DNA of 64,000 nt. Origin: Allobosea sp. (GTDB taxonomy: Bacteria > Pseudomonadota > Alphaproteobacteria > Rhizobiales > Kaistiaceae). Below are positions 3,600 through 18,287 of this stretch, one piece after another. The stretch lies in the NCBI GenBank assembly GCA_017307955.1, contig JAFKFV010000007.1, positions 248,001 to 312,000 on the forward strand. Direction: 5' to 3'. Positions within the stretch are counted from its first letter, which is position 1, and every line of letters begins with the position of its first letter. Both the position numbers and the translations under genes were made by a program. Below the pieces are notes generated by a model, which had not been told where the DNA came from, ran no database searches, and saw only the letters and a list, made by a program, of their open reading frames with translations.

Positions 3600-3683
3600 A
3601 TGAGCCTCGCTCGTCCGATTCAGTTCCTTGCGGTGAGTGCCGCCTTCCTCTTCATTGCCGCCATTGTCGTCGGCGCGCTGTGA
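3600..3683 (+). CDS. Small single-pass membrane protein, 27 residues
   Basis: A very short frame: basic N terminus (MSLARPIQ) followed by one hydrophobic helix (FLAVSAAFLFIAAIVVGAL) that runs to the stop. CGGGAG ends 8 bases before this ATG; an ATG two codons earlier (3594) is too close to that ribosome site. It resembles the small membrane proteins often left out of annotation. No function can be given. It is convergent with azlD. Confidence 0.5.
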   Translation: MSLARPIQFLAVSAAFLFIAAIVVGAL

Positions 3684-3718
3684 CGCCGTTCACAGCGCAA
3701 GGCTGAAGAGAGCTTGTC

Positions 3719-11917: not shown

Positions 11918-13414
11918 TCACTCCGCGGCGGCGGCGAGACCGTCGGTCGGCAGGCCGAGCGCGGCGGCGACGCCGATGCCGTAATCGGGATCGGCGCGGT
12001 AGAAATGCACGAGCTGCCGGTTGACGATCTCGACCGGGACGCCCTGCATCGCCGCGGCGATATTGCCGTAAAGCTGCTGCTTCTGCTCCGGCGACATCAG
12101 GCGGAAGAGATTGCCGGCCTGGGTATAGTCGTCATTGCCGCTGCGATGGTCGTAGCGGTCGGCGTCGCCCGAGATCTTCAGCGGCGGCTCGCGGAAGCGC
12201 TCGTCCTGCTTCGGGCCGGAGAAGGAGTTCGGCTCGTAATAGGCGTCGGGCGGGGTGGTCGGCGGGAAGAAGCGCATCTGCCCGTCCTTGTGATAGTTGT
12301 GCACCGGCACCTTCGGATGGTTCACCGGCAGCGCCTCGTAATGCGTGCCGAGCCGGTAGCGATGCGCGTCGGCATAGGAGAAGATACGCGCCTGCAGCAT
12401 CTTGTCCGGCGAGAAGCCGATGCCCGACACGATGTTGGATGGCGAGAACGCCGCCTGCTCGATCTCGGCGAAGTAATTGTCCGCGTTGCGGTTCAATTCC
12501 ATGATGCCGACATCGATGAGCGGATAGTCGCCATGCGGCCACACCTTGGTGAGGTCGAAGGGATTGTAGGGCGTCTTGTCCGCATCCGCCTCGGGCATGA
12601 TCTGGACGGCGAAGCGCCAGCGCGGGAAGTCGCCGCGCTCGATCGCGCCGAAGAGATCTTCCTGCGTCGACTCGCGGGTCTGGCCGACGACGCCGGCCGC
12701 CTCGCTGTTGGTCCAGTTCTTGATGCCCTGCAGCGACTTGAAGTGGAACTTGACCCAGAAACGCTCGTTGGCGGCGTTGATGAACGAGAACGTGTGCGAG
12801 CCGAAGCCGTGCATATGCCGGACATTCTGCGGCAGGCCGCGATCCGAAAAGAGGATCGTCACCTGATGCAGGCTCTCGGGCGAGAGCGACCAGAAGTCCC
12901 ACATCGCCGTCGGCGAGCGGAGATTGGTCTTGGGGTGGCGCTTCTGCGTGTGGATGAAGTCGGGGAACTTCAGCGGGTCGCGGACGAAGAAGACGGGTGT
13001 GTTGTTGCCGACGAGGTCCCAGTTGCCCTCCTCGGTGTAGAACTTGACCGCGAAGCCGCGCACGTCGCGCTCGGCATCGGCGGCGCCGAGCTCGCCCGCC
13101 ACCGTCGAGAAGCGCGCGATCAGATCGGTCTTCTTGCCGACCTCCGAGAAGATCTTCGCCTTGGTATATTTCGTGATGTCATGCGTGACGGTCAGCGTGC
13201 CATGCGCGCCCCAGCCCTTGGCGTGGACGACGCGCTCGGGGATGCGCTCGCGGTTCTGATGCGCCAGCTTCTCGATGAGCTGCCAGTCCTGCATCAGCAG
13301 CGGGCCACGCTGGCCGGCCGAAAGCGAATTCTGGTTGTCGGCGACCGGCGCACCCGCCGTCGTGGTCAGCGTGCTCGGCGTATCCGTCGGCTTGTCCGCC
13401 GGGTTGTCCGTCAT
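11918..13414 (-). CDS. katA: Monofunctional heme catalase
   Basis: 498 residues, the size of small-subunit (clade 3) catalases. Active-site His lies in [12 protein letters not shown], the distal Asn in [18 protein letters not shown], and the proximal heme-ligand Tyr in [17 protein letters not shown]. The enzyme breaks down hydrogen peroxide in the cytoplasm. ATG at 13414 is preceded by GGAGGGCGCC; a longer reading from 13504 lacks a ribosome site. It is divergent from oxyR with an OxyR-like box between them, and ends in a strong terminator. Confidence 0.97.
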
Positions 13415-13518
13415 GGCGCCCTCCATTGATGGCCGCGGGTCATCTTGCTGTGTCCCGCTCGAATGACGCCACCATGCCACGCAGTCTGGATCGGTTCCAA
13501 TCACATTGAATGGGGACT

Positions 13519-13539
13519 GCGATAAGTTTATCTGATCGC
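13519..13539. promoter_or_regulatory. LysR-type T-N11-A box, probable OxyR site
   Basis: GCGAT-N11-ATCGC, a 5-bp inverted repeat with exactly the T-N11-A spacing of LysR-family sites, lies 28 bp before the oxyR start codon and about 105 bp before katA. A second inverted repeat (GATAA-GT-TTATC, 13521-13532) is nested in it. Position and spacing support OxyR control of both genes. Confidence 0.7.
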
Positions 13540-13566
13540 ACGACGCCAGACCCGAAGGAGGGCGGA

Positions 13567-14481
13567 TTGATCACGCTGCGCCAACTCCGCTATTTCGACG
13601 CCGTCGCCCGAAGGCTGCATTTCGGCCGCGCCGCTGACGAATGCGGCGTCTCGCAGCCGGCGCTCTCGCAGCAGATCCAGGACCTCGAGGCCGCGCTCGG
13701 CCTGCCGCTTGTCGAGCGGGGCGCGCGGCGTATCGCCCTGACGCCGAAGGGACGGGAGATCGCCGACCGGGCGGCGCGCATTCTCGGCGATGTCCGCGAT
13801 CTGACCGATTTCGCCCGCCATGGTGGCGCCGTCCTCTCCGGAACGCTGAAGCTCGGCGTGATCCCCTCGGTGGCGCCCTATCTGCTGCCGCGCGTGCTGC
13901 CGAAGGTGAACGCAGCCTATCCGGCGCTCGAACTGCAATTGCGCGAGACGCGCACCGACCAGCTGACGCAGGAACTGGCGCAGGGCAAGCTCGATCTCCT
14001 GCTCATGGCGCTGCCGCCCGGCGATCCGGCGCTCGGCAGCCGTGCGCTCTTCACCGACCGCTTCCTGCTCGCCCGGCAGGCGACACCCGATTCGCCGCAG
14101 CCGCGCCTCGCCGGCCCCGATGCCATTCCGGCCGACCGGCTGCTTTTGCTCGAGGAGGGTCACTGCCTGCGCGACCAGGCACTCACCTATTGCCGGATCC
14201 AGAAATCGGAACTGCAGAGCGGCTTCGGCTCGGCCAGCCTCGCGACGATCATGCAGATGGTCGCCAACGGCTATGGCGTGACGCTGCTCCCCGAGATCTG
14301 CGTCGAGATCGAGGCGCGCGATCCGCGCATCGCGCTCGCGCGCTTCGCCGAGCCGGAGCCGAAACGCGAAATCGGCCTCGTCTGGCGCCGCTCCTCTCCG
14401 CGCAGCGCCGATTTCGCGGCCTTCGGCGACCTCGTGATCGAGGCGATGCGCGAGACCGGAAGCAGCGCCGTCGCTCCTTAG
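13567..14481 (+). CDS. oxyR: Hydrogen-peroxide-inducible regulator OxyR
   Basis: A LysR-family regulator of 304 residues from a TTG start at 13567, which sits 6-7 bases after GGAGG and gives [14 protein letters not shown] as the first helix; an ATG at 13510 would add 19 residues without a ribosome site. The redox pair is present: Cys200 in EEGHCLRDQ and Cys209 in TYC, matching Cys199/Cys208 of E. coli OxyR (305 residues). The N-terminal helix-turn-helix includes [16 protein letters not shown]. Divergent from katA, its expected target. Its stop overlaps the end of the convergent tam gene by four bases. Confidence 0.95.
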
Positions 14482-15382: not shown

Positions 15383-16054
15383 ATGACCCGCACCGACGCG
15401 ATGATCCCCGATCTCTACGGCCCCGCCCATGACGCGATGCGCTTCGCGCTCGCCGATGTCCTGGCGGCGATTGCGCTGCAGGACGAGGCGGAATGCGGCG
15501 CCGTCGCCGCGCGCTGGATGCTTGTCGCCCGGCTCGTCGACAGCCACGCCCGCGCGGAGGCGGGGACGCTGCTGCCGCTCCTCGCGATCGCCGCGCCGCG
15601 TGTCGCCGCCGAGCTCGGCGCCGCCCATGCCGCGCTCGCCGAGGCTGCCGATGCGATCGGCGCGTCGCTCGCGACGGCCGCCGGAGCTGCGGATCACGAC
15701 CGCCGTCGCCATTACCGCGCCGCGCTGGTGCTGGTCCGCCATTTCGTCGGTGATTGCCTGCGCCATCTCGGCGAGGAAGAGAACCGCGCGCGGCCGGCGC
15801 TGGTCGGGCATTTCCCGCCGGCGACGCTGTTCGCGGCAAGACGCGCCCTGCTCGCGCGGCTCGGCCAGACGGAGGCCTGTGCCAATCTCGCGGTGATCGC
15901 GACGGCGGTCGACCGCGGCGGCGCCTGCCCGCTGCTCAGGACGGCCGCGCTCAGGGATGGGGACGGCTTCGCGAAGGAAGCCGAGCGGATCCTCTCGGAC
16001 GCGATGGAAGCCGCGACGAGGATCGATGCCGGCGCGGAGCGCCTCGCCGCCTGA
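15383..16054 (+). CDS. Hemerythrin-like domain protein
   Basis: 223 residues; the first about 145 look like a hemerythrin HHE four-helix bundle: His in LYGPAHDAM, HxxxE in VDSHARAEAG, His in GAAHAAL and His/Glu in RHLGEEEN, the set expected to hold a non-heme di-iron centre. The C-terminal 70 residues are helical and unassigned. Such proteins bind O2 or NO or handle iron. Shine-Dalgarno GAGGAGC lies 5-10 bases before the ATG. The Crp/Fnr-like sites on both sides suggest control by oxygen or nitrosative stress. Assignment is by motif only, as the pattern departs from classic hemerythrin. Confidence 0.65.
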   Translation: MTRTDAMIPDLYGPAHDAMRFALADVLAAIALQDEAECGAVAARWMLVARLVDSHARAEAGTLLPLLAIAAPRVAAELGAAHAALAEAADAIGASLATAAGAADHDRRRHYRAALVLVRHFVGDCLRHLGEEENRARPALVGHFPPATLFAARRALLARLGQTEACANLAVIATAVDRGGACPLLRTAALRDGDGFAKEAERILSDAMEAATRIDAGAERLAA

Positions 16055-16058
16055 CCCC

Positions 16059-16074
16059 TGTGACTTCCGTCACA
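16059..16074. promoter_or_regulatory. TGTGA-N6-TCACA site just after the hemerythrin-like gene
   Basis: TGTGACTTCCGTCACA starts 5 bp after the stop at 16054. It matches the Crp consensus half sites exactly and shares GTGAC-N4-GTCAC with the site at 15295. It could act as an operator for whatever is transcribed to its right, or fold as a 6-bp hairpin in the mRNA 3' end. Confidence 0.5.
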
Positions 16075-16151
16075 GACACGGCCCTCGCCGACAGGCACCT
16101 TCAGTGCCAAGTTCGGCGCCACCACCCCGGCGCCGAGGTGACCATGATTCC

Positions 16152-16439
16152 GGGGAATGGTGTCCGGCTCTCGTCAGGACATCCCGAGAATCCGGTCCCG
16201 GCCGCACCTCGCCTGTGCGGCCGCTCAGGAACCCTTGGCCTTTTGGCTGAGGAAGGGCGGACGGTTCTGCCCCTGCCCCCTAGACCCAGGCAGGATCGTC
16301 CGCCAGCCCATGTGCCTCGCCCTCCCGCGAGGCTCGTCTCAACCGGCATGGCCGGTGGGGGCTGCGGGCGGTGTACGGCGTAACCGCCGTCGTGCATCGC
16401 CCGTCAGCCGCGGGGACTCGCGGGCGCGACCACATTCCC
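16152..16439. ncRNA. Candidate structured RNA of unknown type (strand uncertain)
   Basis: A 459-bp gap between two convergent genes contains a dense set of inverted repeats. GGGAATG (16153-16159) pairs with CATTCCC (16433-16439) and would close the whole segment. Inside: GGCCGCAC/GTGCGGCC (16200-16222); GGCGGACG-3-CTGCC pairing with GGCAG-3-CGTCCGCC (16256-16304); GCCTCGC/GCGAGGC (16314-16333); ACCGGC/GCCGGT (16342-16356); and a further stem around CGGCG-TAAC-CGCCG (about 16376-16389). No protein frame with a ribosome site is seen. I find none of the signatures of RNase P, tmRNA, 4.5S RNA or cobalamin riboswitch. Strand cannot be decided by eye. Confidence 0.4.
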
Positions 16440-16513
16440 ATCGTGAGAATGGCGAAGGCCTTGCTCCGCCAAGCGCGAAGCGGGCGGCGGCTGTCGCGCC
16501 GCCCGGCCAGCCG

Positions 16514-18166
16514 TCAGCGCGACAGCTTCTTGTACTTGATGCGGTGCGGGTTCACCGAGTCGGGGCCGAGGCGGCGCTTCTTGTCCTCCTCGTAGTCGGC
16601 GAAATTGCCCTCGAACCACTCGACATGGCTGTCGCCCTCGAAGGCGAGGATATGCGTCGCCAGGCGGTCGAGGAACATGCGGTCGTGGCTGATGATCACG
16701 GCGCAGCCGGCGAAATCCTCCAGCGCCTCTTCGAGCGCGGCGAGCGTCTCGGTGTCGAGGTCGTTGGTGGGCTCGTCGAGCAGGATGACGTTGTTGGCGT
16801 CCTTCAGGAGCTTGGCGAGGTGGACGCGGTTGCGCTGGCCGCCCGAGAGCGTGCCGACCTTCTGCTGCTGATCGGTGCCCTTGAAGTTGAAGGCGCCGAC
16901 ATAGGCCCGCGTGTTGACCTCCTTCTTGCCGAGATAGAACACCTCGGCGCCGCCGGAGATCTCCTCCCAGACGGTCTTGTTGGCCGCGAGGTCGTCGCGG
17001 CCCTGGTTCACATAGCCGAGCTGCACCGTCTCGCCGAGCGTGATGGTGCCCGAATCCGGCTTCTCCTCGCCGGTGATCAGCTTGAACAGCGTCGACTTGC
17101 CAGCGCCGTTCGGGCCGATCACGCCGACAATGCCGCCGGGCGGCAGCTTGAAGGAGAGGTTCTCGATGAGGACGCGGTCGCCATAGCTCTTGGTGAGGTT
17201 CTCGACCTCGATGACCTTGCCGCCCAGCCGCTCGCCGACCGGGATGACGATCTGCGCGGTCTGCAGCGTCTTGGCCTGCGCCGCCTCGACCAGCTCGTCA
17301 TAGGCGCGGATACGCGCCTTCGACTTCGACTGGCGGGCCTTCGGCGAGGAGGCGATCCACTGGCGCTCGCGCTCGATCGCCTTCATGTGGGTCATGTCCT
17401 CGCGGCCTTCCTGCTCCATCCGCTTGGCCTTCTTCTCCAGATAGACGGAGTAGTTGCCCTCGTAGGGGATGCCGCGGCCGCGATCGAGCTCGAGGATCCA
17501 GCCCGTCACATTGTCGAGGAAGTAGCGGTCGTGGGTGACGATCAGGATCGCGCCCGGATAGTTGCGCAGGTGATTCTCGAGCCAGGAGATCGACTCGGCG
17601 TCGAGATGGTTGGTCGGCTCGTCGAGCAGCAGCAGGTCGGGCTGCTCGAGCAGCAGCCGCGCCAGCGCCACGCGGCGACGCTCGCCGCCCGAGAGGTTGA
17701 CGACGCTGGAGTCGCCCGGCGGGCAGCGCAGCGCGTCCATGGCCATCTCGACCTGGCCTTCGAGATCCCAGAGATTCTGGCTGTCGATGATGTCCTGGAG
17801 CTTGGCGCCCTCGTCCGCCGTCTCGTCGGAATAGTTCATCATCAGTTCGTTGTAGCGATCGATGATGGCCTGCTTCTTGGCGACGCCGAGCATGACGTTT
17901 TCGAGCACCGTCTTGTCCGGATCGAGCGGCGGCTCCTGCTGCAGATAGCCGACCGTGGCGCCCTGCGCGACCCAGGCCTCCCCGGTGAAGTCCTTGTCGA
18001 GGCCGGCCATGATCTTGAGCAGCGTCGACTTACCCGAGCCGTTCGGGCCGAGCACGCCGATCTTGGCGTCGGGATAGAAGGAGAGATGGACGTTCTCGAG
18101 GACCTTCTTGCCGCCCTGATAGGACTTGGTCAGGCCCTGCATGAAATAGATGAACTGGCGCGCCAT
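16514..18166 (-). CDS. ettA: ABC-F translational throttle ATPase EttA
   Basis: 550 residues, two ABC domains and no membrane segment (E. coli EttA is 555). Walker A motifs GPNGSGKSTLLK and GPNGAGKSTLFK; signatures LSGGERRRVALARLL and LSGGQRNRVHLAKLL; Walker B LLLLDEPTNHLD and VILLDEPTNDLD. The inter-domain linker has the EttA-type KARQSKSKARI. The N-terminal MARQFIYFMQGLTKSY is typical, with GGAG 9 bases upstream of 18166. EttA binds the ribosomal E site and gates elongation by ATP/ADP ratio. Confidence 0.97.
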   Translation of the reverse strand: MARQFIYFMQGLTKSYQGGKKVLENVHLSFYPDAKIGVLGPNGSGKSTLLKIMAGLDKDFTGEAWVAQGATVGYLQQEPPLDPDKTVLENVMLGVAKKQAIIDRYNELMMNYSDETADEGAKLQDIIDSQNLWDLEGQVEMAMDALRCPPGDSSVVNLSGGERRRVALARLLLEQPDLLLLDEPTNHLDAESISWLENHLRNYPGAILIVTHDRYFLDNVTGWILELDRGRGIPYEGNYSVYLEKKAKRMEQEGREDMTHMKAIERERQWIASSPKARQSKSKARIRAYDELVEAAQAKTLQTAQIVIPVGERLGGKVIEVENLTKSYGDRVLIENLSFKLPPGGIVGVIGPNGAGKSTLFKLITGEEKPDSGTITLGETVQLGYVNQGRDDLAANKTVWEEISGGAEVFYLGKKEVNTRAYVGAFNFKGTDQQQKVGTLSGGQRNRVHLAKLLKDANNVILLDEPTNDLDTETLAALEEALEDFAGCAVIISHDRMFLDRLATHILAFEGDSHVEWFEGNFADYEEDKKRRLGPDSVNPHRIKYKKLSR

Positions 18167-18287
18167 AAGGTGTGCTCCAAGCGGCTTCCGGGGGAAGCGC
18201 GGCATTTGGGGATGGGTCTGGCGCTCTTCTAGTCGAACCCATGCTGCGGAGCAACGCGCGCGGCGGAATCCGGCGCGCAGCGCGGCG

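Follow-up and report, generated by a model that had tools for sequence, protein, structure and literature searches.

In the 64,000-nt stretch of DNA analysed here (the window), the interval 16055-16513 is flanked by a hemerythrin-like gene (15383-16054, + strand), whose Pfam match is sub-threshold, and by ettA (16514-18205, − strand). Between these two genes we find no family-matched protein gene, in agreement with an earlier note on this DNA that had described the gap as gene-free and proposed a candidate new structured RNA within it. A GC-rich hairpin on the − strand (16482-16504) lies just downstream of the ettA stop and, judged from its fold and position, is probably the ettA terminator, outside the RNA gene considered below. 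In Kaistia contigs with enough flank, the gene order katA (catalase), an OxyR-like LysR regulator (oxyR), tam (trans-aconitate methyltransferase), RNA element and ettA is kept, with one or two additional genes in the neighbourhood of some species; since the neighbourhood is the same in the contigs examined, the RNA gene is orthologous across Kaistia. In the window (11918-14481) the catalase gene is divergent from the OxyR-like gene, and the Kaistia contigs inspected keep this pair close to the RNA.

The element is present in 14 of 14 Kaistia genomes, the window genome included. A DNA search returns a single copy per genome, in the window genome as in 13 congeneric ones, and a pattern scan matches in K. 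hirudinis, K. defluvii, K. granuli, K. dalseonensis, K. adipata, K. soli and K. terrae, as well as in 'Mesorhizobium' sp. BR1-1-16. Beyond the hairpins the RNA sequence is mostly unalignable among these species. An order-wide covariance search yields matches only in Kaistia, in another genus of its family (G015) and, weakly and without the loop described below, at one further locus (L039). Exact matches to the loop pattern in Actinomycetes, Rhodobacteraceae, Myxococcales MAGs and other genera of the order come without stem and promoter, and we regard them as chance. The RNA is absent from Rfam: a search of the whole window against Rfam 15 at gathering thresholds gives zero matches, and lax thresholds give only chance-level matches here and in eight relatives, in a comparison that covers RNase P, tmRNA, SRP, 6S, riboswitches and described sRNAs. 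This bears out the earlier failure to recognise RNase P, tmRNA, SRP RNA or a riboswitch by eye, and ARAGORN likewise finds no tRNA or tmRNA.

The + strand folds with an energy of −263.7 kcal/mol (z = −7.3), a value that none of 100 dinucleotide shuffles equals, as compared with z = −4.6 for the − strand. A model of three hairpins, H1 to H3, was placed on the 14 sequences and pairs 99.0% of cells vs 94.6% in shuffles, with two-sided changes at 11 pairs vs a shuffled mean of 4.3 and none of 500 shuffles as high; these shuffle counts are not probabilities, because related sequences are not independent. When the partners are slid against each other as a control, pairing falls to 26-54%, and RNAalifold recovers the same helices independently. 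H1 (16233-16252, +; CCUUGGCC UUUU GGCUGAGG) has 8 pairs and is followed by an invariant GAAG; 96.4% of its cells are paired, and 4 pairs show two-sided changes. H2 (16256-16304, +) consists of a 16-bp stem and a 17-nt C-rich loop, and all of its cells (100%) are paired in 14 of 14 species despite two-sided changes at 7 pairs, which is a stronger point than the shuffle counts. H3 (16342-16361, +; ACCGGC-NNG-GCCGGU, then an invariant GGGG) has 6 pairs and is invariant in sequence, so that no covariation signal is possible. Between H2 and H3, a further hairpin, H2b (16314-16333, +), is predicted in all 14 linkers with arm sequences that differ, its position being conserved and its sequence free to change; several species give only a weak energy signal.

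Downstream of H3 stands H4 (16361-16409, +), a terminator hairpin in relatives, in whose core 110 of 112 cells are paired with G-C/A-U exchanges among species, as exemplified by GCGGGCGG/TCGCCCGT, ACGAGCGA/TCGCTCGT and GCGGACGG/CCGTCCGC. A U-rich tail lies 3' of H4 in about half of the Kaistia species; no U tract is found after H4 in the window species, which makes the 3' end uncertain here. The stem at 16256-16304 had been recognised correctly before, while the 3x3 internal loop attributed to it does not hold: the positions concerned are G.U, U-A and U.G, mostly replaced by Watson-Crick pairs in relatives, and the helix is thus continuous over 16 pairs. Nor do we find support for the proposed closure of a 290-nt domain by a 7-bp pair (16153-16159 with 16433-16439), which reads GGGAATG/CATTCCC in the window and is not conserved, since the next closest species (80% identity) reads GGGCACC and ACCCATC. 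The large multibranched domain is likewise unsupported, and the RNA is better described as a row of separate hairpins.

The H2 stem also fixes the strand, as about 24 G-U cells within it are compatible with the + strand only and would become A.C mismatches on the other. The same G-U pairs bear on the view that this is a non-transcribed cluster of hairpins (a REP/BIME-like repeat or an ettA terminator region), with stems that act as DNA or within the ettA 3' UTR. High G+C, the separate hairpin just past ettA and weak second H1-H2 copies elsewhere in two species speak for such a cluster, but we consider it very improbable, given the + strand G-U pairs, a single copy in nearly all genomes at a fixed locus, and a dedicated promoter with fixed spacing. 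A dual-function RNA or a small-protein mRNA is the least probable of the readings weighed here: short ATG ORFs do occur in some species, but no ORF is conserved across the 14 Kaistia species, an ATG ORF of 10-80 codons is missing from 7 of 14, the leader varies in length, and the most conserved part of the RNA itself undergoes a 1-nt length change.

The promoter begins at the very edge of the interval (16059) with a CRP-type operator, TGTGACTTCCGTCACA, followed by an invariant GAC (16059-16077, +). The motif TGTGA-N6-TCACAGAC is found in 14 of 14 Kaistia genomes, 139-254 nt upstream of the loop motif, with both palindrome arms and the GAC invariant. The spacing from this site to a −10 element (CACCTT, 16096-16101, +) is fixed in all 14 and in G015; every Kaistia copy has an A at position 39 and a T at position 43, numbered from the palindrome. 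With the palindrome centred at −41.5, as in a class II promoter, these would be the invariant A(−11) and T(−7) of the −10 box. A composite promoter pattern matches in 18 of 28 genomes, as compared with 0 of 28 for the reversed pattern, and it matches the RNA gene in 14 of 14 Kaistia and in G015, with some other loci matching too. A generic promoter and terminator scan returns nothing, with no match to the sigma-70 consensus −35/−10, a consensus that is often missing from class II activator promoters. The sequence thus has the layout of a class II CRP-dependent promoter (centre near −41.5, −10 box), from which a start at 16108/16109 is deduced; together with an end placed at H4, this predicts a transcript of about 300 nt (16108-16410, +), whose leader 3' of the promoter is variable in length and not conserved.

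The genome encodes several CRP/FNR paralogues, one of which (L126) is the homologue closest to Mycobacterium tuberculosis CRP (3d0s, E 1e-31). It carries the RS..TN motif of the cAMP pocket and a recognition helix, GASREAVNK, that compares with GASRETVNK in the M. tuberculosis protein, and it may be the protein that binds the palindrome of the RNA gene. CgrA, a CRP homologue of the alphaproteobacterium Rhodospirillum centenum, binds the same TGTGA-N6-TCACA palindrome (PMC4681086), but it responds to cGMP, is described with protein genes as targets and regulates cyst development. From the operator and its spacing, we consider it likely that a CRP-family regulator activates the RNA gene.

Judged from sequence features, the RNA would be an independent transcription unit, with a conserved promoter, convergent orientation to ettA, and a terminator hairpin followed by a U-rich tail in about half of the species. 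The convergent arrangement largely refutes a cis-acting leader (a riboswitch or attenuator) of a downstream gene. A same-strand ORF does lie some 150-200 nt past the RNA in several species, but H4 with its U-rich tail stands before the ORF where one exists, and in species that include that of the window the RNA faces ettA, which is convergent, and no same-strand gene lies 3' of it; we regard a leader function as highly unlikely. The earlier proposal of a new structured RNA is thus upheld by genus-wide conservation, compensatory changes, a conserved promoter and the lack of an Rfam match, and this sequence evidence indicates that the element is almost certainly a real, stand-alone RNA gene. Two of the conditions that the note had named as refuting it, absence from relatives and a folding energy like that of shuffled sequence, do not hold.

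The most conserved part is the H2 loop (CCUGCCCCCUAGACCCA, 16272-16288, +), the proposed target-pairing site, which is 17 or 18 nt long and reads CCUGCCCC-(n)-AGACCCA in all Kaistia, varying by one or two letters and by 1 nt in length. G015 carries the same promoter upstream of two H1-H2 units in tandem; their loops are identical, each with CCCUGCCCCCCAGACCC. That loop and stem are duplicated together suggests that the loop is the functional part of the RNA. The G015 tandem locus (L035/L107) is apparently not syntenic with the Kaistia locus. The second H1-H2 copies seen in two Kaistia genomes are degenerate and have no CRP box; one (L036 1501-1612, G004) retains the C-rich loop and the other (L037 1501-1603, G001) does not.

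Potential targets were sampled as Kaistia start regions that match GGGGCAGGG before an ATG. Two genes recur among the true starts in this sample, both named by eye from their sequences: one for an aidB-like acyl-CoA dehydrogenase and one for a livK-like binding protein. Predicted energies of pairing with the loop range from −21 to −36 kcal/mol for the aidB-like start region (13 genomes, median −29.3) and from −23 to −31 kcal/mol for the livK-like start, whose gene occurs in 6 genomes and is missing from 8 of 14; both were chosen post hoc. The background of 82 starts has a mean near −16 kcal/mol (sd 5), and none reaches −29.3. These energies are biased because the targets were picked after matches to GGGGCAGGG, the orthologous start regions are not independent of one another, and several aidB-like starts deviate at the pairing site; with selection made by match, the two genes are a lead rather than proof. 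An unusual G-rich Shine-Dalgarno sequence, GGGGCAGG or a close variant, precedes the aidB-like gene in most of 13 species (L280-L292). On these predictions we regard target pairing through the H2 loop as reasonably probable.

One alternative is that the RNA is structured but has a protein or the ribosome as its main partner rather than an mRNA, with the loop and the invariant GGUGGGGC after H3 forming a binding site or a loop-tail pseudoknot. Both segments are near-invariant over their whole length, beyond what a short seed needs, and the complementarity of GCCCC and GGGGC makes such a pseudoknot possible. We think this unlikely, as G015 retains the loop without the GGGGC segment and the invariant stretches give no visible covariation.

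Our preferred interpretation is that the element encodes a trans-acting, CRP-activated sRNA, to which, taken as a whole, we assign a probability of about 0.62. A CRP-family protein would bind TGTGA-N6-TCACA centred at −41.5 and activate transcription from about 16108 in class II geometry, probably with cAMP. The transcript would form a row of hairpins that ends at H4, with H2 presenting the near-invariant C-rich loop; the loop would then base-pair with Shine-Dalgarno regions rich in G (GGGGCAGGG, for example) and block translation, with the aidB-like acyl-CoA dehydrogenase gene and the livK-like amino-acid transporter gene as candidate targets and repression as the expected outcome.

Several known sRNAs share parts of this scheme. 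GsrN of Caulobacter is expressed under the general-stress sigma factor and pairs with and activates katG. Its C-rich loop pairs with a G-tract in mRNA leaders (PMC5869019), and the Kaistia RNA is likewise an alphaproteobacterial RNA with a C-rich loop, with pairing that is only predicted; its promoter differs in being CRP-type. As a GsrN-like target, katA was rejected, its leader pairing at −17 to −22 kcal/mol being unremarkable vs the background mean. CyaR and Spot 42 of enterobacteria and VcdRP of Vibrio are under direct cAMP-CRP control, comparable to that suggested here, but CRP represses Spot 42 and VcdRP, whereas the Kaistia promoter points to activation. VcdRP requires four consecutive cytosines to pair with several mRNAs (PMC8672173) and also encodes a protein, in contrast to the Kaistia RNA with no conserved ORF. 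Within the same order, the AbcR sRNAs of rhizobia and Brucella control ABC-transporter mRNAs in trans (abstracts of PMC8844928 and PMC5461406), which resembles the predicted livK-like target; their promoter and motif are unlike those of the Kaistia RNA, which has no Rfam match. The RNA matches none of the described sRNA families covered by Rfam.

The RNA forms a so far undescribed sRNA family whose parts (operator, −10 box, compensated hairpins, terminator and near-invariant loop) can be read in silico with unusual completeness, and it illustrates that a genuine RNA gene missed by curated RNA libraries can be spotted from raw sequence. If the promoter is read correctly, post-transcriptional control is tied to a CRP-family regulator in a rhizobial lineage for which a limited literature search found no such sRNA described, and the aidB-like and livK-like predictions offer directly testable targets. 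More speculatively, and in our view doubtful, the RNA might be a global regulator of the Kaistia lineage under CRP-family control, in which one loop serves as a general anti-Shine-Dalgarno decoy that silences many mRNAs, relatives raise the dose by hairpin duplication, and a pseudoknot with GGUGGGGC perhaps gates the loop.

TGTGA-N6-TCACA is rare in the 4.8-Mb genome, with only 6 sites, the RNA operator included, and the five others reveal no obvious regulon. Another of the six, also a perfect palindrome, lies in the window (3679-3694, intergenic). A second class of site, TGTGA-N6-TCAC-N-GAC, is conserved in other Kaistia genomes (L094, L112, L097, L109, L099, L103 and L101), with a small membrane protein gene downstream in L094 and L112 and another ORF in L099 and L109.
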